Origin: Dichetophora obliterata
Taxonomy: Eukaryota; Arthropoda; Insecta; Diptera; Sciomyzidae
NCBI GenBank assembly: GCA_963920525.1
Contig: OY986436.1
Span: 178,719,361 to 178,783,360 of the forward strand
Length of the DNA stretch: 64,000 bases
Direction: 5' to 3'
The translations under genes were made by a program, and so were the position numbers. Below the pieces are notes generated by a model that saw only the letters and a program-made list of their open reading frames with translations, was not told the DNA's origin and ran no database searches. This document shows, piece after piece, positions 11,920-57,585 of the stretch; positions within the stretch are counted from its first letter, which is position 1; each line of letters opens with the position of its first letter.

Positions 11920-12919
11920 CTAAGAACCAGGAAGATCTTCAATCAGATATCTATCTCTTCCGAGAACTTTAGTAATCTGAAAAGGACCTTTGTAATGTGG
12001 TTCAAGCTTCCTAGAGGTCCCGGTACTAACAGGTTCGTTTTCGGCTAAAACAAAATCTCCAATTTCATATATTGTTGGTTTTCGATGTTTCTCGTCATAG
12101 TGAATTTTAACTTTTTCTCGCTGACTGTTGACTCTTGTTGCAGCGTTTTCTCGAATAAGTGATATATCTTCTTCGGTGACAACGTTATTGGTTTGAAGCG
12201 CCAAAATTAATTTATTCTTCAGGATATCGCGAGGAGTAAATGCAAACAATAATTGTTGTGGAGTACGCCCTGTTGTTTTATTTTTCGTTGCATTTAACGT
12301 CCATTGAATGTTGCGGAGATTCTCATCCCAATGCTTGTCATCTTTAGTTGTTGGTAAAAGCATTGAAAGCAAAGTTCTATTAGTTCGTTCAGCATGCCCA
12401 TTTGCCCTAGGCGTACGTACTGCATTCAAAATGTGTTTTATGTCATTTTCAAAACAAAATTTTTTAAAATCTTTTGCTGTAAAAGCTGTTCCTCGATCCG
12501 TTACTATCCGTGTCGGCACTCCAACGTAGCTACTAATTTCATTCAAAATATCGATGACATGTCTTGTCGCTGTGCTCTTAACTGCACGAATGATGGTATA
12601 TTTCGTAAAAGCGTCTACTAATACAAGAATATGTTCATTCCGCTTTGAGCTTCGAGGAAAAGGCCCTAGGTGATCCAAATGAACGGTGTCAAACGGTATT
12701 GGATTAATTTTATCAAAATGGAATTCACCCTCCTGTTTTCCTCCACGTTGTTTGTTATAAGCACTCAATACATGTGTTGATAAACGATTTTACAAAATTC
12801 CGCATCCTGGATAACCAAAGATGTTTTTGTCGACCCTCGATGGTTCTATCAACACTAACATGTCCTGCTCGTTCATGATACTCCTGAACAACTTTCCACC
12901 GTAAAGCTTTTGGAACAAC
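11920..12919 (-). pseudogene. Integrase with DD35E catalytic core
   Basis: From 12919 to about 12770 a broken frame resembles the N-terminal HHCC zinc-binding region. The 282-codon frame at 11920-12768 carries the core. The catalytic residues are the D of LDHLGPF (32), the D of VTDRGTAF (91) and the E of GHAERTNRT (127), with 35 residues between the last two. QQLLFAFTPRDI and the C-terminal LEPHYKGPFQITKVLGRDRY fit the GPY/F module. Integrase inserts the cDNA into the genome. The element end follows within 150 bases. The catalytic triad is intact, but the N-terminal domain is frameshifted. Confidence 0.92.
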
Positions 12920-13240
12920 TCATAAATTTTTTTCCTTTACTTTTCGAAACAATCGCCCATTTTCAAACTTATAATCGTTATTTAAAATTCGATCGCCAGT
13001 TTTAATTTTCTCTGCGATTTCGCGAATACTTGAATCCATCATCTGCATAGCTAACAACCAATCACCTTCATCTAAATTGGTTTTAGCTACCCGAAGCGAA
13101 GCTGTATCTAATTGTCGCGCATCTTCATATGGTGCTCTACTTAGCGCGTCGACATGCTCCATACGTCGTCCTGATCGATGTTCAATTTTAATATCAAAGT
13201 CTTGAATTCGAAGCCACCATCTTGCGATTCGAGGAATAAG
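12920..13240 (-). pseudogene. RNase H end and linker to integrase
   Basis: The frame carries on after the stop: ARWWLRIQDFDIKIEHRSG, then HVDALSRAP, the hallmark between RNase H and integrase in gypsy elements. A helical linker (WLLAMQMMDSSIREIAEKIK) follows. The 80-codon ORF ends at 12920. Confidence 0.85.
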
Positions 13241-13870
13241 TTATTTTTTCTGCATTGCAGTTCTTACTGCACTACAATCGGTTATCACCTTCACTTCTTT
13301 GCCATAAACGTAATATCGAAATCTTTCTAAAGATTCGACAACTGCTAATGTCTCCAATTCATAGCTGTGGTATTTTTGCTCTTCGTTCGTCGTCGCTCTG
13401 CTATAAAAAGCTACTGGTTTCGTCTCGTTTCCTTCACGCTGTAAAAGTACGCCTGCCAACCCAATCGAACTTGCATCTGTATGAATCTCGTGCTCTGCTT
13501 CCATCCTGTATGCCACAATGATTGGTTGTGTTGACAGCGCTGACTTGAGTGTATCAAAAGCTCGTTGCTGATCATTGGTCCATTCAAACTTCTGTTCTTT
13601 ACGAAGTAATTTTCTTAGTGGTTCCGACTTTATCGCATATTCTGGAACAAACTTCCGAAAATACCCACTTAGACCTAAAAATTGTCTAATTTCGGTTAAA
13701 TTTTTGGGCTGGCGAAAATTTTCTATCGCCGCTGTTTTTGCAAGGCCAGGGCTAATTCCACCTTGGCAAAGTTGATGTCCCAAAAATTCGATGGTTTCTT
13801 TGAAAAACTCGCATTTCTTTATATTTAAAGTTAAATTTGCGCCACGTAGAACTTGGAAAATTTTCTTCAA
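13241..13870 (-). pseudogene. RT connection and RNase H domain
   Basis: The sequence continues RT after the hAT insertion: KIFQVLRGANLTLNIKKCEF, then LGHQLCQGGI and RQFLGLSGYFRKFVPEYA of the thumb. IHTDASSIGLAGVLLQ and YELETLAVVESLERFRYYVY belong to the RNase H domain, which degrades the RNA of RNA-DNA hybrids. The frame ends at AMQKK with an in-frame TAA at 13241. The codons after it (LIPRIARWWLRIQDF) are still RNase H, so this is a nonsense mutation. Confidence 0.92.
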
Positions 13871-13877
13871 TTTTTCA

Positions 13878-15919
13878 CAGGGCTCGCAAACAAACTCTAA
13901 AGAAAAGTATTTTTCTGTTCTGTTTGTTTCTTCTTAAGATCACAACAAGTATTTTGGTTCGTTTAGTTTTTTCTCTCCGATTCAAAAAGTAGCACAAACC
14001 GAAGCAAGTAGAGACGAGAGAGAAAAGTAAAATGAAATGTTTCTTTTTTCGAATAGAAAAACTTCCTCTCACTGTTATGCTTTTGAATCGCGTGCACAAA
14101 AACAATCAAAGTAAAGTATCTTTAGCGATCTCTTGTAGGTTGCTGGAAGCACCAAAATCCGAAGAGAGATCTGCAAAGTTTGTTCGTTTCGTTTATGATG
14201 CGCCTTTTTTTTTTTTTGTGTTGAAAAAGTTATTGCGTTGGAATTTTTCTTTGTTTTGTTGCTTTTATTGAATTTGTTGTTTCATATAGATGCGTTGATC
14301 TCATTTACAAACATATAAACAAATAAACAAACAAACAAATATTGCTCGTTTAAAAGTATAAGAAAGATATAAAAAATTCGATGACTACCCAGTAACAATA
14401 TTAGCCATATATTCATTCTTGCAGAGCTTATAGTGCTATCTTATATAGCAGCAAGCTTCAACTATAGCTTTAGTCGCGCTACTAAAGCTCTTGCAGAGAA
14501 TATATAAGGCTACTTTCTTGAGTTTAAAAGCACTATTTTTACTTCATATGAGGAGTAGAAGTAGCTGTAAACTTTTAAAAGAGTCCCTGTCAAACCCAAA
14601 TAAGAGCTCTTGCAAAGCTCTTTTTTATTATTCGTTTAAGTATGTATGTGTTAATAATAAACTCAATAAATATATAAAATTTGACAAGTGTTTGTGATGA
14701 TAAGAATGACAAATAAATTAAAGAAATAATAAAGTGATTATTATATCAGACTCATGTTCGTGTATTCGTTGTATGCTGCGAATTTCGGTGCGCTTTTGAA
14801 TTTATCGGAAACGTGAATGTAGTACTTCGAAAAACTACAACGGGCTTAACAAATAATTAAAATTAAGAAGTGTTAATTATTTAAAAATGGTTGGGAAAAT
14901 TTTTAACATTCTTTAAAATCAACTAAAAATGATTTAAGTACTTTATTCTTAAATATATGTATCATAGAAATCATCAATTTCGTTTTAAATATTATTGTAA
15001 ACACTAATATTTAGCTTGCTTCAACTCCGAAGATTTTCTATTTTTTATAAGATCGCCATTTTTTTCAAAGAAGCTCTTTATCAGATTTTTTAGTCACTTG
15101 TTATTCCCAAAAAATTTATTGCATTAATTTACAGTATTTTATATCTATTCGCTTTAAAAATGCAATACAAAAATACACATTAAAGCAAATATTATACTCA
15201 ATCTACGAGTTTTAAAACTGCTGTATAGTAATTTTTATTACTTTAAAAGATCCTTTACAGAGCAAGTAGTAAATTTTAGAGTTCTGCTCTTTTGCAGATT
15301 TGATAAAATCCTTTACAGAGCTGTATAAAGTATTAAAGCTCAAAATGGTAAACAAATCATATTTAGAGCATTTTCTTTAAAATTAAAAGCAACTAGCAGC
15401 AAACAAAGCTGCGGTAAAGCTTTAATTGCATATTATACACCTATTGAACACTTTTAGGACTCACTCGCACCTAGTTGCTCCAACAATGTTACTTGGGTAG
15501 GAGCGTGAAATGTATGAGCTGGTCTATTAATTTTTTCCCCCTCAAAATTTCTTATCGGCTTATGAAATTTAAATGCAAGCAAATCAACAGAACGAGACTT
15601 AAAAAATCTTAGCTTCCAGAAAAAATGCTGCTTAAAACATGACGAAATTCTTTTGTCGAATTTCCGTAGTAAAACGAACACAACATTTGTTACTTGTTGT
15701 GGTTGCGATCGTGACAGCAAAATCTTAAATACGAAATACTTGTTGTTTTCGAAGAACACAAAACAATAGTTTTCTTTCGCTCTTAATTTTCTGTTCGCTT
15801 TGGTACGCATTTCTGTTTGTAGCAAAGATCCAAACCTAAGCAGATAGTGAAACTGTTTGCTTTCGCAGATTTAGCAGATGTAGAGTTTGTTTTTTCGTAC
15901 AGTTTATTTGCAACCCCTG
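13878..15919. mobile_element. Non-autonomous hAT element inside gypsy RT
   Basis: The exact 8-base duplication ATTTTTCA flanks it (13870-13877 and 15920-15927). The ends are CAGGGCTCGCAAACAAACT and the complement of CAGGGGTTGCAAATAAACT, which fit hAT. It is 2042 bp with no transposase. Its internal frames (for example 14032-14271 and 15454-15825) show no family motif. AGAGCTCTTGCAGAGC-like words recur (14421-14500, 14600-14625, 15255-15325) and may be subterminal transposase-binding motifs. Confidence 0.9.
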
Positions 15920-16274
15920 ATTTTTCAATCATTTCGTCTACAGAATTACTGCCCACTAATACGTCGTCCATATAATGCAACATATCATCTTTTGATGTTT
16001 GTTCTTTGACTTTTGCCATCAGACGCTGAAATACCATTGGTGCATTTTTTAAACCAAATGGCATTCTTTTAAATTCATATAGCCCTTCTGTAGTAAGAAA
16101 AGCAGTGAATTTCCGACTCTTTGGCTCAATTGGAATTTGATAATAACCGCTATTTAAATCTAAAACTGAAAAGTATTGATAACGAGTTGCAGCTTGAAGT
16201 CTCTCTTCAATATTTGGCATCGGATAAATTTCTTTCCTCATATGATTATTTAAACGTCTATAATCAATACACAT
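15783..16274 (-). pseudogene. Reverse transcriptase, palm and fingers
   Basis: CIDYRRLN begins the piece. VLDLNSGYYQIPI (catalytic D about residue 39), FGLKNAPMVFQRLM and HYMDDVLVG (YMDD about 101-104) are the A, B and C motifs of LTR-element RT. After DEMIEK at about 15920 the reading runs into the hAT-type insertion and the remaining residues are not RT. The frame resumes at 13869 on the other side. Confidence 0.92.
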
Positions 16275-17035
16275 TCTATCACCACCACCTTTTTTTTACG
16301 AGAATAATTGGACTGGCATATTAAGAACTCAGATTTTGTTATGATATCGTTTTCGAGCAACTCTACTATTATTTTACTAACAACTTCTTTCTTCGGTTCT
16401 GGAATTCTATATGGTCGTTGTTCAATTGGTTCGCTGGAAGTTAATTCAATCTTAAAATCAATTAAATCTGTCTTACTAAGTTCGCTTAAATCGTTTGCAA
16501 AAACATCATCATAGTCTTTTATCAAATCTTGAAGCTTATCCTCTGCATTATCGTCCTTGATGCCACTTTTAATTTGAGTTATATCGACACGAACTTTTGT
16601 TTGAATATTATCATTTTTAATTCCGCTTTCAGTTTTGTAATTTTGTAAATATTTTTTTATAACCGAATTTTCGACAAATTTTTCTTCATTTAAATTCGTA
16701 ATATTTTCCGAAAAAGTTAATTTTATTTTATTGATTGTTGCACAAACGTCTTTATTTTCAAAAATTTCTTGGCCCAATAAAATATCTGAACTTAGAATTT
16801 TGTCCTCAACCACATGCAATTCTATATTCATTTTAATATTGTCAATATCTATCACAGTTAATAGTTTTTCTTTTAAATACGCTGAACCACCACAAATTCC
16901 TCGAATTTTCATTGAGCACTTTTGACTCGCTACTGATCTTTTAATTAAACTGCACTGGCTACCAGTGTCAATAAAAGCTACTAAATCGTTTTCACCAATT
17001 TTTATTGTTTTTTCAAAAATTTTATCACAAAACAT
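16250..17035 (-). pseudogene. Protease and start of reverse transcriptase
   Basis: The 261-codon frame starts 13 codons after the Gag stop and in the same frame. AFIDTGSQCSLI contains the DTG catalytic triad of a retroviral-type aspartic protease. The C-terminal part (FKIELTSSEPIEQRPYRIPE) is the classical start of gypsy reverse transcriptase. After ITKSE the frame is lost. At least two frame changes occur between about 16275 and 16325, one of them in an A8 run, before the RT frame resumes. Such breaks make the copy unable to make full Pol. Confidence 0.88.
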
Positions 17036-17074
17036 TTTTCGTATTGCTGTGTGTTTTTTTCCACAATTTTCCGG

Positions 17075-18103
17075 TTAATTTTTCGAATGTACTTTATTGC
17101 AATCTTTACACCTGCGACGCTTTTGAGGCTTATTGCACTGACTTGAAATATGTCCTTCTTCACCGCAATTAAAACAAGTAACTTTTGATTTTAAATTTTC
17201 ATTTTTTTCAAATTTACTGAAATTTTTATGTCCGCTTTTAAATTTATCGTCCATCGGTTTTGTAAAACGTGAGTTTCGCGGAAGATTGCGCAAATAATTA
17301 TCGAGTGTTTCACGCATTTGTTTCATGTTGTCGAACTGTAGTGGAGCAATAGCTATTTGAAGGTCTCTATGATTCAATCCTTCACGCGTATATCTAATAA
17401 TTGCATTTTCACTTAAACAAAACCGTTGTTTTAATGCATTCATTCGAAAGCAATAGTCAATAATTTTTTCGTCTTGTTTACGCACAGCACTTTTAATTTT
17501 AAAATGTATATCAGCCTCATCGTATACACAACCGAATTCGCGTTTTAATTGTTCGAAAAATTCTGTCCAATTCGAATATAATGTTTGAGAAGCATCAAGC
17601 CAGAGTTTTGCAACCCCTTTCAAACGACTATAAACAGCCAATAATAAACATTTGTCATTCCAACCGTAAGCACTGATAGAACTATTAACACGTTCAATAA
17701 ATTGTTCTACAGACAAACACATTTCACCCGACGGATCGAACTCTGGAATTGTTTCTGCGATTTCTTTAACCGAATAAGAAGCGCGAATATTATTTACCGG
17801 AGACAAAAAGTTTCTATTTTGTATTTCAATTTCAACCTCGTTTTGTTCGATTCTGTTTCGAGGTTCTTGTTGAGTAGCTTGTAACAAATTCGTAACATTT
17901 GTTAACATGTTTCGAAGCTCATTAATTTGTTCCTGTAAGCAACCTTGATCCTGATTAATGGGAACTTCATCACTACCTAACGCCTCACATAGGCGTTGAA
18001 TGAGTTCTGATTTGGAACCAGCGGTATGCAGATCCTGTTCACGAAAGAGCTCTTTTAGCTGTTCCATTTTGAGCGTATTTATTTTAACAATCTTTCGATT
18101 CAT
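17075..18103 (-). CDS. Gag polyprotein with SAP domain and zinc knuckle
   Basis: 342 aa. Residues about 13-45 (MEQLKELFREQDLHTAGSKS and following) fit an SAP motif, a DNA-binding helix-extension-helix uncommon in Gag. The middle holds a retrotransposon Gag core (WNDKCLLLAVYSRLKGVAKL). Near the C-terminus is a CX2CX4HX4C zinc knuckle (CFNCGEEGHISSQC, about residues 310-323) and a second cysteine pair (CKDC). Gag packages the RNA into particles. The frame ends in TAA at 17075. The next 13 codons to the protease ORF are in the same frame, so one stop separates Gag from Pol. Confidence 0.9.
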   Translation of the reverse strand: MNRKIVKINTLKMEQLKELFREQDLHTAGSKSELIQRLCEALGSDEVPINQDQGCLQEQINELRNMLTNVTNLLQATQQEPRNRIEQNEVEIEIQNRNFLSPVNNIRASYSVKEIAETIPEFDPSGEMCLSVEQFIERVNSSISAYGWNDKCLLLAVYSRLKGVAKLWLDASQTLYSNWTEFFEQLKREFGCVYDEADIHFKIKSAVRKQDEKIIDYCFRMNALKQRFCLSENAIIRYTREGLNHRDLQIAIAPLQFDNMKQMRETLDNYLRNLPRNSRFTKPMDDKFKSGHKNFSKFEKNENLKSKVTCFNCGEEGHISSQCNKPQKRRRCKDCNKVHSKN

Positions 18104-31597: not shown

Positions 31598-31812
31598 CAT
31601 GGCAGAATTAGAGAAGGTATATGCATTTTGGAGAGGGAGACTGCCGCAACTGTCAAAACGAAGTTGACAGCTCATACAAAATCTGAAAACGATGAGAATG
31701 CGATAAGAAAGCGAAAATAGGCAAGAATACCAAAATGCTTGAGTTTGACAATTCTGGCTATGAGAAAGAGAGCGCAGTCTGAAATGCATATACCTTCTCT
31801 AATTCTGCCATG
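31598..31812. mobile_element. 215-bp MITE with CATGG ends in Penelope nuclease
   Basis: Exactly inverted 31-base ends start CATGGCAGAATTAGAGAAGG. The perfect 8-base duplication GTAGAGAG lies at 31590-31597 and 31813-31820. CANRG ends with an 8-bp duplication fit the P superfamily, though hAT cannot be excluded. No coding. Confidence 0.88.
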
Positions 31813-33285
31813 GTAGAGAGTGTTCAGCTACAGCGCTACGATACGGTTCGTTGTTTACGATGCATTTAAGATGTTCTCTTGCTCGAATGCGTAGCTCTCT
31901 TCTAGTCTGGCCGACGTACACACAATCACAAAGCTCACACTTAGCTATGTAAATGCCCGGCTGTGCGTTCGGAGAAACTGCGTCTTTCGATGATTTTAGC
32001 AAGAAGCCGAGTTTGTTGTTGCTTTTTGGAACCAAACGTGCATTCGCTACTCCAAAGAATTTTGTGAGTTTGTTATGAACTTGAGAATGGAATTTCATTG
32101 CAAAACGTATCGGTTGTTTAGAAATCGATGACAAAGAAGTGATATTTTTTAGTCGCTTTTTCTTTCGATGCTTCTTAATCAGACCCCAGTCAATCAATTG
32201 AGCAGGATATCCATTTTTAGTGGCTATTTCATAAATTCGGTCTTTCTCCCTCTTGAAATTGTTCAATGCTAACGGTATGTTACACATTCTATGCACCATA
32301 GAATTAAAAGCAGCGTGTTTGTGCGATGAGTGATGATTTGATTCGACAGTTATATAACGATCCGTGGCTGTTGGTTTGCGATAAATATCGAAATCGATTC
32401 CTCCATGTTCATTACGTGACAATAGCAAATCGAGGAAAGGAATCTGGTTATTATTTTCTTCCTCCACCGTGAATTGAATATTAGGGTTCACACTATTGAT
32501 TAGGTCGAGCGTTTGTTCAAGTTTTTCTTTTTTAACAATTGAAAACACGTCATCTACGTAGCGGAACCAGATTTTTGGGAATAACTCCTTCTTAGACAGT
32601 TCCTCCTCCAAACGATTTACGAACAAATTGCAAAGAAACGGAGATAAGTTATTACCCATGGCCATGCCTTCTGTTTGTTGATAAAACTTTCCTCTGAATT
32701 GAAAAAAGGTATGCTCAGTGCATGTTTTGGTTAGTTGAAATAATGCTTCAGATTCAATATGGTCCAATTGTTGTTTGTCAAGCCAAATTTGAAGGCAAAT
32801 CAATGCTTCTTGTACTGGCACACTGGTAAAGAACGATATTATATCAAAAGAGACCATTATTTCATCATCTGCAATTTTTACCTGCCGTAGTTTTTCAGAA
32901 AGTTGTACCGAGTTTTTTACAGAAAACAAATCCAATTGTTTTAAAGATGAGAAATGATTGCAGAGCCAGTAAGACAATTTTTGACATGGGGCATTTATAT
33001 TACTGACGATTGGACGATATTTATTGCCGGGCTTGTAGATTTTTGGTAAACCATATATAGAAGGAACTTTTGTGTAACTAGGTAATACTTGTCTTTTTTT
33101 CAAATTTTCAAATAGTCCTCCGAAATACAAAATCCTACTGTATATATAGTTTAGTTTTTTTAAAATAGTTCAGTAATGCTAATAAATTTTTTATGTTATT
33201 TATTTAAATTCGTGCAATAATAAAATCAAAAAAGTTAAGTTAACTAAATTTGTACAAGTATAAAGTTACCGTACTAAAAGAAATG

Positions 33286-35806: not shown

Positions 35807-36939
35807 TATAATTTATTTATTTTATTTATTTATTTAAAAAGAAACAATCATGAGTTCACTAAGAGCAAACTCTTTAATAGTAATTAAAAATTAAACACAA
35901 TTTAGGAAACAAAAAATAACTGAATATAATTAACACAATAATTAAATTAAAATGAATTGTTAAAGAGTAAAGAAAATTAAAAAGAAGGAATAGAAAAAAA
36001 GGAGTAGAGAAGAAGTAATCTAAGGAGCAGAAAAGAAGCAAAAGACTGATTGCCTTAAACTGACTCTCCCAGTGACCTCCCTAAGACTTCGTGGCATATT
36101 ATTCCACAACCTAATGACTTTGATGAAAAACAAGTGGGAAGTGTTTAGCGACAAATGCCTCGGAACTATCATGACATTGCTTCTTCTAGACGTACCAAAC
36201 TGGAGCTTATCAAACGATAAGCAATTATATCACAACCAAGTATAACAGTTCGGAAACTGGAAAGACAATCATATTTTTGAAGACCATAAACATAACGCTG
36301 GCATAATTAAACGCAATTTGATGTTTTAACTGGGACGAAGAATCAAGTTTGCTATACACTATTTCAGAAAAAGTTATAACAGGTAATACAAGTTGAATTA
36401 CCAACTTACGCCAAATATCAGTTGATGTTACACTGGCAGACAATCTCAGGTTAAGCAGAACATAATACATTTTACTAACTGCATTATTAACATAGTCCAC
36501 ACATGACAGAGAAGAATTTAAATGGAAGCCTAGATTCTCAATTTTCGACACAACAATAAGTTTATTTGATCCAATAAACAAATCAGGAACATAATTTAAA
36601 CAAGACTTAAGCTTACAAACAGGGAGAACATATGATTTGGAAGAATTAAGTATAAGATCATTCTTTAAAGCCCATTCATTAACATAATTGAGGTCTTCAT
36701 TCAACCTACAACCAAGGTCATCAATGAGGACAGTTCTACGAGAAAGTTACAACTGTGTGACGCCAAATTTCAACGGCGTTGAAATTATCAGTCACAGCGC
36801 CGGAGTGTGCACGCGCTAAACACCACCACACACGAAAATTTTAGATATATTTTTATTTGTACAGAATTAAGCATGAAAACAAAAAAAAAAAATACAACAA
36901 TTGAATTAAAATTATCATGTCTGTCTCTTCCCTCTTATG

Positions 36940-37215
36940 TTGTTGTAGAACAGGTTCACCGTAATCGGGATGGCACGACTTGGCTGCGAGATTTTGTTTT
37001 CGAGCTAAGTGCATAAAAGCAACAACAAAATGGATAGATTGCGGTATGTTGTTTTCGAGCAAGGTGCTTGTTGACAAACTAAGCAACAAGGGCAACAACA
37101 AAATGCACACATTGCGGTACGTTGTTGACGAGCAAAATGCTTGTTGACGAACAAAAATGCAAGCAGCGGTCAACAACGATACAAAGTTACGGGATGTTGT
37201 TGACGAGCTAAACCC
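36940..37215 (+). repeat. U3 repeats of the solo LTR (enhancer-like)
   Basis: Units containing GTTGTTxxCGAGC followed by AxGTGC, AACAACAAAATG and ATTGCGGT recur about every 70 bases at roughly 36975, 37050, 37120 and 37195. The units are upstream of the TATA box, as enhancers or insulators in LTRs are. Confidence 0.65.
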
Positions 37216-37245
37216 AACCAGGCGAAGAACAGCAGTCAGGGAGAC

Positions 37246-37280
37246 TATAAAAGGCAGCCAGCGCAGAGATCTGGACAGTC
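37246..37280 (+). promoter_or_regulatory. TATA box and initiator of the solo LTR
   Basis: TATAAAAGG at 37246-37254 is followed about 28 bases later by AGTCAATC, an initiator-like start. The downstream region to the poly(A) signals is therefore likely R. If active, it would start transcription into 37.3 kb and beyond. Confidence 0.65.
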
Positions 37281-37404
37281 AATCGCGACACGCACGCAAG
37301 TGAACTCAGTGAACAGTGAACCCAGTGAACGAGAAAACTCAGTGATAGTAAAGAAGTGGATACGGTGAGCAAGGCAACTACAAAACCAGCAAAACAGAGT
37401 CGTT

Positions 37405-37740
37405 GGCTTGTAGGCCCACCTGTTAAGGAAAACCAGCATCAGCAGAGTCGTTGGCTTGTAAGCCCACCTGCACAAAATCCGCAAAAACAGAGTCGTTGGC
37501 TTGTAGGCCCACCTGTTAAAAAAATCAGCATAAGCAGCGTCGGTGGCTTGTAGGCCCACCTGCAGACAAGCAGAGAAATAGTGTCGGTGGCTTGTAGGCC
37601 CACACATTTCTAAACCTTTTTTTTAGCAGTGTCAGCGGCTTGTAAGCCCTCCTGCTCCAACAAAAGAGTGCAAAGTCCGTGGCTTGTAAGCCCGCGCACT
37701 CTAAATATTCATCCCGCAACAGCTCCGAGGCTTGTAGGCC
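37405..37740 (+). repeat. Eight-copy GGCTTGTARGCC hairpin repeat
   Basis: The 12-base core begins at 37405, 37453, 37498, 37545, 37589, 37637, 37681 and 37729, spacing 44-48. The spacers have diverged but the core varies only at position 9 (G in five copies, A in three). In RNA either base pairs with the U opposite (GGCUU with ARGCC). The spacing is not a multiple of three, so protein coding does not explain it. Confidence 0.9.
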
Positions 37741-37822
37741 CGTCTGTTGAGTGTAGCAGTGACAACACAACGAGGGACAACGACGGGAAGCTGAGAAAAC
37801 AGGCAGACAGGGAACAGTGAAA

Positions 37823-37848
37823 AATAAAAATTGTACATCGATAATAAA
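37823..37848 (+). terminator. Poly(A) signals in the solo LTR
   Basis: AATAAA occurs at 37823-37828 and 37843-37848, about 125-150 bases before the LTR end, the expected place for the R/U5 border. Confidence 0.6.
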
Positions 37849-39289
37849 ACAAAAAAAATAATAAAAATAATCTTTTAAATCGAACATAAAATCAAAGTGT
37901 TATTTCTTGTAAAAGAACCTTGGAACCCGCTGAGCATACCTCAGCCTGAAGGTAACAACCAGAGGTTCGTTACAACTGGACATCATCAGCGTAAGCTTAA
38001 ACAATAGCATGATTGCAAGCAGAAAAAATGTAATTTAAAGACATAGAAAACAGAAGGGAGCCAAGTATAGAACCCTGAGGGACACCACTTAAGACGGGTT
38101 TGTACCCTTTCAACAATAAACCAATTTCATCTTTTTGACTACCTATTGCACAAGTAGCTGGACATTAAATTAACGGCACTTTGACAGAAACCAAACAATG
38201 ACTTAAGCTTACGACACAAAATTTGATGATTTACTTTTTCAAAAGCTTTCGAGAAATCTAACAAGCAAAAAAGCGTCATAGATCCCTCATTATAATGTGG
38301 CCGTATATCATCAATTATTTTAACAACCGCAGACGAACAACTATGCCCAGCACGAAAACCAGATTGAAACGGAGATAATAGGTTATTATTGACTAAGTAG
38401 TATGTAATTTGTTGAGCCATAAGTTTTTCACAAATTTTTGCTAACGGTGAAAGGATACTTATAGGCCTAAAATCATTGGAACCAGATGGATTTTGCTTCT
38501 TTGCTATTAGAAGAACAATGGCGACAAGTCAAGGAACGATGACGACATGAAACATGAATTAATAATGTGAGTAAGAGGGCTTTTAATGTGGGGCAGTAAG
38601 ATTTTAATAAATTGTATGGAAATACCATCAGCAGCCATTGCATTTGACTTGATTTGCAACACACATTTACCTACATCAAACTCAACCACTGGGGAAAAAT
38701 TGAAGGTTTGACCCAAGAAAGAATTTAAAAGTGGCAAAGTATTACTATTACCAGAAACTGAAGCAGCGTTATCAGTAAAAAAACAGTTTAAAACTTCGGG
38801 ATATAGAAGACTTTCAACTTTGTTTTTGTTGCTTACTGCAAGGCTTTTGATATTATTCTAAAGCACTTTACTTGGAAGAGAAAGCTTAAGTTTGTTAGAA
38901 TAAAAGTGCGTTTTAGCTTGTCTAGTTACAAGGACGGCTTCATTCCTCGCCATTCTTTAAGCTTTCCAGTTCACTTCGGAGAGGTTTAGGCGCCAAGTAT
39001 TACGTAACTTGTTTCTTTTTTTAATGACAGACAGGACATACTGAGAAAACCAAGGACACGAACTATTTTCTATTCTACAACTACATACAGGAACATGTTT
39101 ATCAAACAGAAATTTAATGGGTACTAAAAGGAAATTAATCTTATCATTAATATTGTGTTGAAGCCAACAGTCATTAAACGATAACAAGGACACATCACGG
39201 AAGAGAGACGGATAATTTATATTCTTAAAATCTCGATGAGAAAAAGTATTTGGGACAACTAAGCGAGACAAATTGACATTTAACGTGCA

Positions 39290-55336: not shown

Positions 55337-57585
55337 CCCTTCGTGGGACCCTAAGTAAATTATACGTCAAAGGTCCCTAAGGTCCGCTGGGACATAATAT
55401 GAAAATTGCCTATAAAATGCACTAAAAATGATTGAACACGGGAAAATTTTGGTTTTAAATTAAATATTAATTATTTTTATTGAGATATAGTCTTAATCTA
55501 ATATTATTTTATTGTTCTGCTCGCTGAATCCTGGACGTTTTACACGGCATGCCACGGTGCATCTGCTCTGAATGCTCCATACAAACAAACTTCCTGCAAT
55601 CGCAGCATGCAAATCTTGTTTTACGTTGCCTGTTGTTGTGTTGTTGACTTGTTGGATTGGTGGTGCTTCGCTTGTAATGCTCTCTTCTAGTGGTATGACG
55701 TTGTAGTCCATCATAGCTCTCTTGATATGGGGGTAGCGGGTTATACGATTATTGAGCGCCCTTTCTTCGATTTCGACAGTAGCCAACTGCTGAACTAATT
55801 TGTATAAGAACGACCGCCTCCTGTCGCTTTTCTGGCTCGGATTGAGGTCATTATAGGCGATAAATGACGCCAATGCAGCAACGTCCACAATATTATAAAA
55901 CATGGCCAGTGGCCAGCGTTTAGTACCTCTTTTACACGTGTATGTATCTAGCATTTGGTCCTTCGTGTCCACTCCAGCTTTATTTTTGTTGTATTCCACA
56001 ATGGCCATTGGTTTTTTATGTGCTCCTTCGACGGCGTTTGTATAATGTGCTGTTGAAATGAGTACCACTGCTTTATTTTTCTTCGGCACATATGAGCATA
56101 GCGCAACGTTGTTGTCATGGTAGCCGAACAATGTACTATCAATTGGGCGATTGCGATTCTTCCAAAACTCACTGGGAATACAAGCTTTATTTGTGCGTAA
56201 GGTACCAACATATGCTGTTCTTTGGGTAATCAAGTTTTCAGCCAATTCAAGAGACGAAAAGAAGTTGTCTGCATACACAATGCGGCCAGTAAATAAGTAT
56301 TTCTGCGCGAGCTTCATTGTCACTTTGTAGCCCAGCTGGGTTTCACGCTCCTGTCCTGGTGCTTTTCCAGAGTATATGATACCTTTGAGCGGATATTTGG
56401 ATTTTGCATCACATATCCACCACACCTTTATTCCATATTTTGCAGGCTTTGATGGAATGTACTGTGTAAATGATGTCCGTCCTCTATATGGAAACAGTTG
56501 TTCATCTACTGTTAGAGCATCATGTGGTTCGTACCGACTTGCCAAATTAGCTTGCAGCATGAGCCAAATATCATCAATTGCTGCCGTTTTGCTGCTCTGT
56601 GACCTTTCCATGCCGTTATTCACGTTGTCAAATCGTATGTACCTCAATAGCAGTTTGAATCTTTTGAATGACATTACAGCTCTGAAGATTGGTGGATGAT
56701 TTGTATCAAACAGGCAGTAAGCCGGTTCATTGTTTGACTTATATAAGCCAGAAGCTATAAGCATTGCCAGGAATGCATCAAACTCCTTGGGTGTCAGTGG
56801 TTGCCATTCTTTGGGTCGTGTTGGATTAGCTTCATTCCACGCTTCAATAGTTTGTTTGGCTTTTCGGTTAATTTCTCTTACGATTATGTGTGACATTTCC
56901 TCGGTAAAAATTGTTTTGGATATGCTCAATGGATCATCCGAAGTCATTATTGGTCCTATTCCTCTACTTCTCATGGTGAAGATATTGTGAGATCTTACAC
57001 GTGAAGTTGGTGGCGGCGCTTTCTTCCATTTCATACCATTTTTGCCAACATAATAGTCATCTGAAGTTGTTTCTTGATTTGGCGGCGTTTCATCATCATC
57101 GTCACTTGTATCTTCGTCCCAGTATTCAATAGTGGCTCCACTTTCGCAATCAGAGGCTTCTTCATTTAGTTGGAGCGATGGATCACTTATTTCATCATCA
57201 AAATCACAACTTTGTTCATTTAGTATTTCATTTATATTGATATTTGCTTCGCACATTTTTCTTTAGCTCAATTCAATTCAAAAGTTATCAATTCAATTTT
57301 GAGCCATAAAACAATGAATTCCACGAAGTAATACCGTTAATTTGCTTAATTTTCATACTATGTCCCAGGGGACTTTAGGGACCTTTCTCGTAGGCAGTAA
57401 AAGTAAATACTTAGATCTCGGTAACCACTGGTCCGATTTTAAGGATCGAACCCGTAAAAGACGCAGAACTAAATGTTCCAGGAATACTGGTAACTTTGGG
57501 AGGGGGGGTCGTAGTGGCCAAAATAGGAGTAATTTGCGATTCAAAATCGAAAAAGTCCCTACGGACCTTAGGGTCCCACGAAGGG
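55337..57585 (-). mobile_element. piggyBac transposon, nearly intact
   Basis: TTAA at 55333-55336 and 57586-57589 with 19-base exactly inverted ends CCCTTCGTGGGACCCTAAG. Subterminal GGTCCCTAAGGTCCG-type repeats occur near both ends. 2249 bp with one 587-codon transposase. It lies in the arm of the fold-back element. The sharp ends and long ORF suggest recent arrival. Confidence 0.96.
55493..57256 (-). CDS. piggyBac transposase, C-terminal finger frameshifted
   Basis: 587 aa, near the usual size of about 590. The first 70 residues are acidic (DEDTSDDDDE). The RNase-H-like core has the three catalytic aspartates: D251 in TVDEQLFPYRGR, D330 in YADNFFSS and D430 in NKAGVDTKDQM. It cuts and pastes the element at TTAA. 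The annotated C-terminus (QDLHAAIAGSL onward) is not family-like. A different frame over the same bases reads FACCDCRKFVCMEHSEQMH, part of the zinc-binding cysteine-rich domain. A one-base frame change near 55630 is implied, and the first Cys pair is not visible. Catalysis may be possible but DNA binding by the finger is probably lost. Confidence 0.95.
   Translation of the reverse strand: MCEANININEILNEQSCDFDDEISDPSLQLNEEASDCESGATIEYWDEDTSDDDDETPPNQETTSDDYYVGKNGMKWKKAPPPTSRVRSHNIFTMRSRGIGPIMTSDDPLSISKTIFTEEMSHIIVREINRKAKQTIEAWNEANPTRPKEWQPLTPKEFDAFLAMLIASGLYKSNNEPAYCLFDTNHPPIFRAVMSFKRFKLLLRYIRFDNVNNGMERSQSSKTAAIDDIWLMLQANLASRYEPHDALTVDEQLFPYRGRTSFTQYIPSKPAKYGIKVWWICDAKSKYPLKGIIYSGKAPGQERETQLGYKVTMKLAQKYLFTGRIVYADNFFSSLELAENLITQRTAYVGTLRTNKACIPSEFWKNRNRPIDSTLFGYHDNNVALCSYVPKKNKAVVLISTAHYTNAVEGAHKKPMAIVEYNKNKAGVDTKDQMLDTYTCKRGTKRWPLAMFYNIVDVAALASFIAYNDLNPSQKSDRRRSFLYKLVQQLATVEIEERALNNRITRYPHIKRAMMDYNVIPLEESITSEAPPIQQVNNTTTGNVKQDLHAAIAGSLFVWSIQSRCTVACRVKRPGFSEQNNKIILD

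Follow-up and report, generated by a model that had tools for sequence, protein, structure and literature searches.

The window analysed, a stretch of 64,000 nucleotides from contig OY986436.1 of the fly Dichetophora obliterata, possesses a solo long terminal repeat (LTR) of the Ty3/gypsy type at 36756-37974. It is 1,219 bp in length, has the termini TGTGAC...GTTACA, and is flanked by a 4-bp duplication (ACTG). The LTR sits within a LINE of reverse orientation, with a YADDV-type reverse transcriptase motif on one side and an open frame (36225-36704) on the other. The features are as follows:

36752-36755, no strand: left target duplication ACTG; 4-bp duplications are found at other copies too
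36756-37974, plus strand: solo LTR, 1,219 bp, TGTGAC...GTTACA, with copies genome-wide
36756-36782, plus strand: end of ORF3 (final codons and stop), a frame whose end overlaps the beginning of U3 in full-length copies (the frame of copy L084 passes the LTR start)
36985-37215, plus strand: a 28-nt block present four times in U3 (spacing 55, 73, and 75)
37246-37251, plus strand: TATA box TATAAA, present 5′ of the array in 96 of 109 copies
37275-37880, plus strand: putative R region (both boundaries putative), without ATG
37393-37424, plus strand: hairpin unit 1, stem AACAG/CTGTT, core 37405-37416
37442-37471, plus strand: hairpin unit 2, stem GCAG/CTGC, core 37453-37464
37486-37517, plus strand: hairpin unit 3, stem AACAG/CTGTT, core 37498-37509
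37534-37563, plus strand: hairpin unit 4, stem GCAG/CTGC, core 37545-37556; the unconstrained fold differs
37574-37611, plus strand: hairpin unit 5, stem AGAAAT/ATTTCT, core 37589-37600
37625-37656, plus strand: hairpin unit 6, stem AGCAG/CTGCT, core 37637-37648
37665-37702, plus strand: hairpin unit 7, stem AGAGTGC/GCACTCT, core 37681-37692
37717-37749, plus strand: hairpin unit 8, stem CAACAG/CTGTTG, core 37729-37740
37823-37865, plus strand: poly(A) signals AATAAA at 37823, 37843, and 37860
37975-37978, no strand: right target duplication ACTG

The core, GGCTTGTARGCC, has eight exact plus-strand matches, at the eight core positions given above, with spacings of 48, 45, 47, 44, 48, 44, and 48 bases. 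The original prediction of eight near-invariant cores at 44-48-base spacing in a solo LTR is therefore borne out, mean pairwise identity between units being 95.5% in the core. Identity falls to 63-64% over the 9 nt preceding the core and the 6 nt following it, and to 34-37% further away, as expected from the claim that the spacers have diverged. Permutation of the alignment columns equals the observed compactness of the core in 1 of 100,000 trials. With up to two mismatches, both strands of the window contain 13 matches (three of them the opposite strand of A-type cores) versus 3.28 expected, and none of 100 shuffles reached 13; as DNA the core is nearly palindromic. The cores (37405-37740) do lie, as had been stated, between the TATA box at 37246 and the poly(A) signals that begin at 37823.

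The four U3 repeats are diverged, two of them in a 73-nt tandem, and lie just 5′ of the TATA box; they may be enhancer repeats. The 5′ end of the LTR (36756-36796) carries an inverted repeat with 20-nt arms that are 80% complementary. Elsewhere the window contains a nearly perfect (TTAAG)n microsatellite of 972 bp (430-1401; 99% matches) and, on the minus strand, a second, broken gypsy-type element (11920-18103), whose gag has a SAP domain and a zinc knuckle. Also on the minus strand are an open reverse transcriptase frame with a GIY-YIG-like tail (31799-33130), perhaps Penelope-like, and an open 587-residue piggyBac-type transposase (55493-57256; DDE_Tnp_1_7), the best relative of which is 87% identical over 98%.

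Pairing within the hairpin units

Folding of single units reveals a tip, GGCU-UGUA-RGCC, consisting of a 4-bp stem and a UGUA tetraloop, upon a lower stem whose letters are specific to the unit yet complementary. The 5-bp stem GGCUU/ARGCC of the original prediction cannot form, because its loop would be 2 nt; RNAfold gives GGCU/RGCC closing the UGUA tetraloop. The extent first assigned to the feature was right for the core and too small for the hairpin: every unit has its own complementary lower stem, and the hairpins therefore span about 37393-37749. Lower stem and tip are separated by an internal loop with U at -4 in 98.4% and C at -3 in 96.0% of the 899 units collected across the genome.

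The lower-stem complementarity of the eight units scores 105, versus a mean of 37.8 (sd 6.6, maximum 61) in 2,000 flank shuffles, a mean of 42.6 (maximum 74.8) at random places, and at most 63.2 when the centre is slid by 2 to 22 bases; each score is the best of a small register range, chosen alike in data and controls. When the 3′ flanks are swapped among the eight units, native pairing is reached in 12 of 40,320 arrangements with Watson-Crick pairs and in 180 of 40,320 with G-U allowed. For the six distinct units of the window the Watson-Crick figure is 8/720, and scoring with full energy parameters gives a fraction of 0.003 to 0.022, depending on flank length.

Several results weigh against this. 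In a fixed MAFFT register, in which units 7 and 8 are shifted, the counts are ordinary (500 shuffles: cells paired, 86; covariation score, 55; further pair types, 494), and RNAalifold on the window units finds the tip and not the lower stems. Seven of the eight units are not exceptionally stable relative to shuffles (z -1.6 to +0.4), unit 7 having a z of -3.1. A covariance model of the eight units, run on the window, recovers six, misses units 5 and 7, and finds no additional unit; the Rfam covariance models give no match to 37260-37973 up to E = 1. The minimum-energy fold of the whole leader joins the cores to one another, with local hairpin probabilities of 0 to 0.38 (606 nt). These are 0 to 0.69 when the array is folded alone.

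Copies across the genome and constraint on the tip

The window's own assembly (1.31 Gb, 76 contigs) contains 999 occurrences of the exact core, versus 241 of a reversed-pattern control, and 793 occurrences of the unit-7 18-mer at up to two mismatches, versus none in the control. Loci were taken from the 40 DNA-search candidates scored, out of 196, and from the pattern matches listed (100 places per list), a sample which leans to contigs C1-C3. The first set comprised 67 loci and gave 50 distinct arrays, 16 loci being dropped as sharing place or sequence with another and one as lacking an array. The second comprised 60 further places of the unit-7 list (it leaves out at least three), of which 59 carry arrays of at least three units and one has only two. 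Together they hold 109 arrays, 899 units, and 755 exact cores; arrays contain 4 to 12 units, and blocks of units have been duplicated. The leftover 244 exact cores approximate the control number, so that few core arrays should remain outside the sample; at one of these leftover places, L026, no array is present. The constancy of the core is partly built in, since arrays were located through it, and unit 7 is not independent in the second set, which was fetched via exact unit-7 matches.

The same stems recur in both sets, and the copies add AAACAG/CUGUUU, AAAGUAG/CUACUUU, and AGAGUAC/GUACUCU as well as, with G-U pairs, AGACAG/CUGUUU and UAAAUAG/CUGUUUA. Among representative units (36, 20, and 14, at a minimum of 6, 9, and 12 flank differences) native pairing is reached in 0-1 of 20,000 permutations, whether or not G-U is allowed. 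Unit 7 presents a compensatory series, GAGTGC/GCACTC, the wobble form GAGTGC/GTACTC, and GAGTAC/GTACTC, and also a broken form, GAGTGC/GAACTC, a shared variant that breaks a pair in four arrays of the first set. All 37 flank types present in at least four copies (597 of the 899 units) have at least four consecutive Watson-Crick pairs in their best register. Tested as a structured RNA under selection, the stems thus keep their pairing through changes on both sides, while the fixed-register count is ordinary.

Strand polarity is not revealed by the stems, because over all 288 distinct flanks A-C oppositions (61) exceed G-U (39), a result that tells against a sense-strand signal. In the 37 common flank types G-U stands between Watson-Crick pairs in four and A-C in none, a small sample chosen afterwards. 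Within the core, the T-G pair at positions 4/9 (641/899) can pair on the sense strand only.

Between lineages divergence is 3.6% in the core and 19.0% outside it (ratio 0.19), making the core about five times slower; the comparison draws on 150 pairs of arrays chosen at random, matched in unit number, diverged by at least 8% outside the core, and having no more than 40 gap columns, 224 sampled pairs being left out. Cores that mutate as freely as the spacers, the outcome that would have told against the original prediction, were thus not found between lineages. Since an element inserts with two matching LTRs, the differences that they later acquire should be neutral. In 22 LTR pairs of 23 listed, the core differs at 10/2196 and the rest at 65/6360 (ratio 0.45, p = 0.012). 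In 16 clean pairs the core is as free as the rest (6/1680 and 15/4843; ratio 1.15, p = 0.80), this set having been selected after all 22 were seen and omitting six pairs whose alignments contain 44 to 94 gap columns and set different units against each other.

In orthologous units 5-8 (85 of 98 distinct arrays), variants common to at least five copies number 1 in the core versus 49 in the flanks, and those in two to four copies 6 versus 33; the singletons number 18 in the core (48 columns) and 81 in the flanks (136 columns), which per column is also lower in the core (shared versus singleton, core versus flanks: p = 0.004). The first set taken separately (46 of 50 arrays, excluding three that are rearranged and one that has fewer than five units) gives 1 versus 42 for variants common to at least three, and 14 versus 56 for singletons (p = 0.008). 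The sole shared core variant affects unit 8, whose opening loop base is T in some arrays and C in others (a split of 32 versus 53 among 85). Counts anchored on the flanks, with the core left free, give exact cores in 73/79, 35/37, 92/102, 68/72, and 160/168 for five unit types, and in 101/101 and 102/102 for two overlapping patterns of unit 7. Unit 8 has an exact core in only 31/61, and 24 of the remainder are GGCTCGTAGGCC.

Position 4 of the core is T in 897/899 units, while position 7 is T in 893/899 and C in 2/899. Since position 4 stays T although C would pair better with G, the letters of the tip, and not pairing alone, are kept. The original argument from G or A at position 9 proves weak, the pairs at 4/9 being T-G in 641, T-A in 255, and C-A, A-A, and T-T in one unit each, without two-sided covariation; covariation at this pair is uninformative. 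Young elements lacking the array were looked for and not found: among nine full LTR pairs the divergence is 0 to 1.0% in eight and 4.5% in the ninth, and all carry 6 to 10 units. Arrays are therefore present in recent insertions.

The element and its leader

One copy, searched in pieces, encodes gag, protease, reverse transcriptase, RNase H, and integrase, an order from which the element is assigned to Ty3/gypsy; the zinc-knuckle match of gag falls below the Pfam cut-off. Its LTRs also show the TG...CA termini, 4-bp duplications, and primer-binding site (2 nt past the LTR) expected of Ty3/gypsy. LTR length and primer site brought the Osvaldo clade into consideration as a possible home of the element. 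The family search, which covered six pieces and not the 2.2-kb L083, revealed no env family. Named relatives of gag (40 matches) come from Lucilia, Bactrocera, Eurosta, Rhagoletis, Musca, and Glossina, and point to a schizophoran fly as the probable host. At L018 and L019 (C1:121748700-121766300) the letters ahead of both LTRs match those found before 3′ LTRs elsewhere in the family, and a primer-binding site comes after L018, as if three LTRs stood in a row.

A third frame, ORF3 (in one copy at L084:265-1290), is open in seven copies (314-341 residues) and stops inside U3 of the 3′ LTR. It has an acidic start, a variable Asn-rich middle, and a near-invariant basic tail (+11 in 60 residues), which is identical in six of the seven copies and has one K/R change in the seventh. 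The C-terminal DNA is also very similar between copies (0-4 synonymous differences), and the constancy of the tail therefore says little. ORF3 gives no match in Pfam (E 0.001) or, for the tail, in PDB sequences (E 1), and a protein search with residues 255-341 yields 14 candidates, none at E 0.001.

Several copies among the matches listed are 66-70% identical at the start of U3 (query 1-382) versus 85-93% in R-U5. It looks as if U3 had been exchanged between subfamilies and the array retained (window 36756-37137 versus 37380-37974).

The putative R region of the window copy (37275-37880) contains no ATG, where shuffles average 6.7 and none of 300 is as low; six other trinucleotides are ordinary. 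Leaders of the first set (49/50 arrays) possess 20 ATG in 30.4 kb (0.66 per kb), versus 11.3 per kb for CAT, and the preceding U3 has 23.1 ATG per kb. Those of the second set have 48 in 35.6 kb (1.35 per kb), versus 11.5 for CAT. ATG density drops at the TATA box and recovers beyond the end of the LTR; some bins 5′ of the TATA box are also poor in ATG, and the 150 nt that come directly after the box are poor in CAT. Each of nine 5′ LTRs has its primer-binding site 2 nt downstream, with a base change in one, and the distance from the LTR to the first ATG is 94 nt in seven copies and 74 nt in two; in L081, a 74-nt copy, this ATG opens gag. The scarcity of ATG fits a scanned 5′ leader and would place the array in the messenger. 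Internal ribosome entry was set aside because scarce ATG suggests scanning. Predicted to lie inside R, the array would be present at both ends of the genomic RNA.

What may read the hairpins

Tips that are nearly fixed above stems that change in matched pairs lead us to infer that evolution preserves the shape of the RNA, and the locus very probably represents a selected array of RNA hairpins. This much of the original prediction, a conserved array in a retroelement transcript, is upheld by the covarying stems, the slow core, the 1 versus 49 shared variants, and the ATG-poor leader; the binding function that it added (packaging, translation control) is inferential. A changeable stem with a fixed tip and a fixed one-sided loop is a usual mark of protein recognition of a hairpin. 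The proposed structure is a row of bulged RNA hairpins, repeated in tandem within the R-U5 leader of a Ty3/gypsy-type retrotransposon. In each unit the lower stem varies but stays complementary, the internal loop carries a conserved (N)GUC on the 5′ side, and the tip GGCU-UGUA-RGCC is followed by C. The lower stem would merely present the tip, a protein would read the tip together with the UC of the loop, and the tandem copies acting together would provide avidity.

The first candidate for this protein is Gag of the element itself, given that the site lies in the leader of that element and is retained in its lineage; Gag would in this way select genomic RNA for particles. A multivalent Gag site is our leading guess, which we hold tentatively. 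To our knowledge, the known packaging or Gag-binding leaders possess a few distinct stem-loops, not 4 to 12 near-identical units. Structured elements close to the 5′ end of the genomic RNA and recognised by Gag are reported for retroviral and Ty1/Ty3 leaders (PMC4974528, PMC8096270). In PMC3601003, residual conservation in long retroviral R regions is linked to stem-loops, which, unlike the units here, are not described there as tandem arrays.

It is rather unlikely that a host RNA-binding protein reads the hairpins, in export, stability, 3′-end formation (CFIm at UGUA), or Spen-like silencing. Tandem hairpins read by host proteins are known (PMC7282817, PMC8139829), and the array here lies upstream of poly(A) signals. 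The Xist A-repeat and ERV RNA are bound by Spen, and the former, with 7.5 to 8.5 tandem units, conserved structured cores, a proposed origin from an endogenous retrovirus, and recognition by protein (PMC7282817), resembles the present array. It differs in being mammalian, of other sequence, and of silencing function, and is likened by analogy with no relation claimed. The MAT2A 3′ UTR is comparable in carrying six conserved hairpins of one motif in one transcript, which METTL16 reads, while CFIm25 reads UGUA (PMC8139829); the MAT2A hairpins belong to a cellular gene, have another motif, and are a methylation substrate. Against CFIm, the shared variant of unit 8, CGUA, is the very change used as a knock-out mutation in that paper. 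Against silencing, an element would hardly be selected, within its own lineage, to retain a target for it.

A DNA-binding array, with the 12-bp cores as sites for a zinc-finger-like protein in an insulator or enhancer like that of Su(Hw) and the hairpins incidental, is improbable, and deserves respect because the layout of the gypsy insulator is so alike. According to PMC2374998, that insulator measures 340 bp and comprises 12 copies of a 12-bp consensus within the 5′ UTR of a gypsy element. The array here resembles it in having tandem 12-bp cores that occupy about 340 bp of a putative 5′ transcribed region in a gypsy-type element, and its core is nearly a DNA palindrome. The Su(Hw) consensus given there, (TC)(AG)(TC)TGCATA(CT)(TC)(TC), is not matched, GGCTTGTARGCC being without TGCATA. 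The gypsy sites are moreover DNA sites of another motif read by a zinc-finger protein, whereas the present array is inside the LTR and its arms covary as RNA stems. An insulator does not predict arms that change their letters yet stay complementary in each unit, nor a one-sided fixed UC.

It is improbable to a like degree that ORF3 targets the hairpins, as a Rev/Tat-like pair governing export, transcription, or translation of the element's RNA. Hairpins of the R region that are read by a protein of the element have a precedent in retroviruses, and ORF3 is open in its seven copies with an acidic start and a constant basic tail. The lack of any family, solved structure, or homologue among the searches given above means that an RNA-binding domain is not identified, and the C-terminal DNA similarity weakens the argument from the tail. 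In its fuller form, equally doubtful, an env-less insect Ty3/gypsy element would have evolved its own RNA-protein pair, the orphan basic ORF3 reading the R hairpins at both RNA ends. Were this true, ORF3 and the array would constitute a multivalent Rev/Tat-like system outside the vertebrate retroviruses.

RNA-RNA pairing, with the cores as dimer-linkage sites of two genomic RNAs or pairing within one RNA, is very unlikely. The 12-nt core can pair with itself (with two central G-U pairs), and the leader's minimum-energy fold joins the cores; UGUA, however, self-pairs through G-U only, the stronger UGCA is nearly absent (2/899), and the covarying flanks pair inside each unit, not across units. 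Least probable, and largely refuted, is a minisatellite without selection, homogenised by gene conversion and owing the complementarity of its arms to template-switch repair at imperfect palindromes: unit number (4 to 12), duplicated blocks, and a neutral control of 16 pairs chosen after all 22 gave 0.45 speak for it, but conversion would level the flanks too, where shared variants number 49 versus 1 in the core, and repair of palindromes should not have left a UC loop on one side untouched.

A search of viral contigs for relatives of the array revealed one phage with an internal duplication only, prokaryote contigs gave four unrelated repeats, and phage records none. In the literature the letters of the core turn up in nine papers about other subjects, presumably as primers. 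Tandem hairpin arrays and structured retroelement leaders are both already known; their combination seems not to be recognised in the openly licensed literature, where we found no description of such an array (most subscription journals fall outside this coverage).

If the hairpin reading is right, the array would be a naturally repeated RNA recognition site, with about nine hundred units examined in one genome and covariation internal to it, for which the paired LTRs of a single element serve as a neutral control and the candidate partners are few. Tandem core arrays in gypsy-like leaders then need not be DNA insulators, and the array would allow the way in which an insect LTR retrotransposon labels its RNA to be tested directly.
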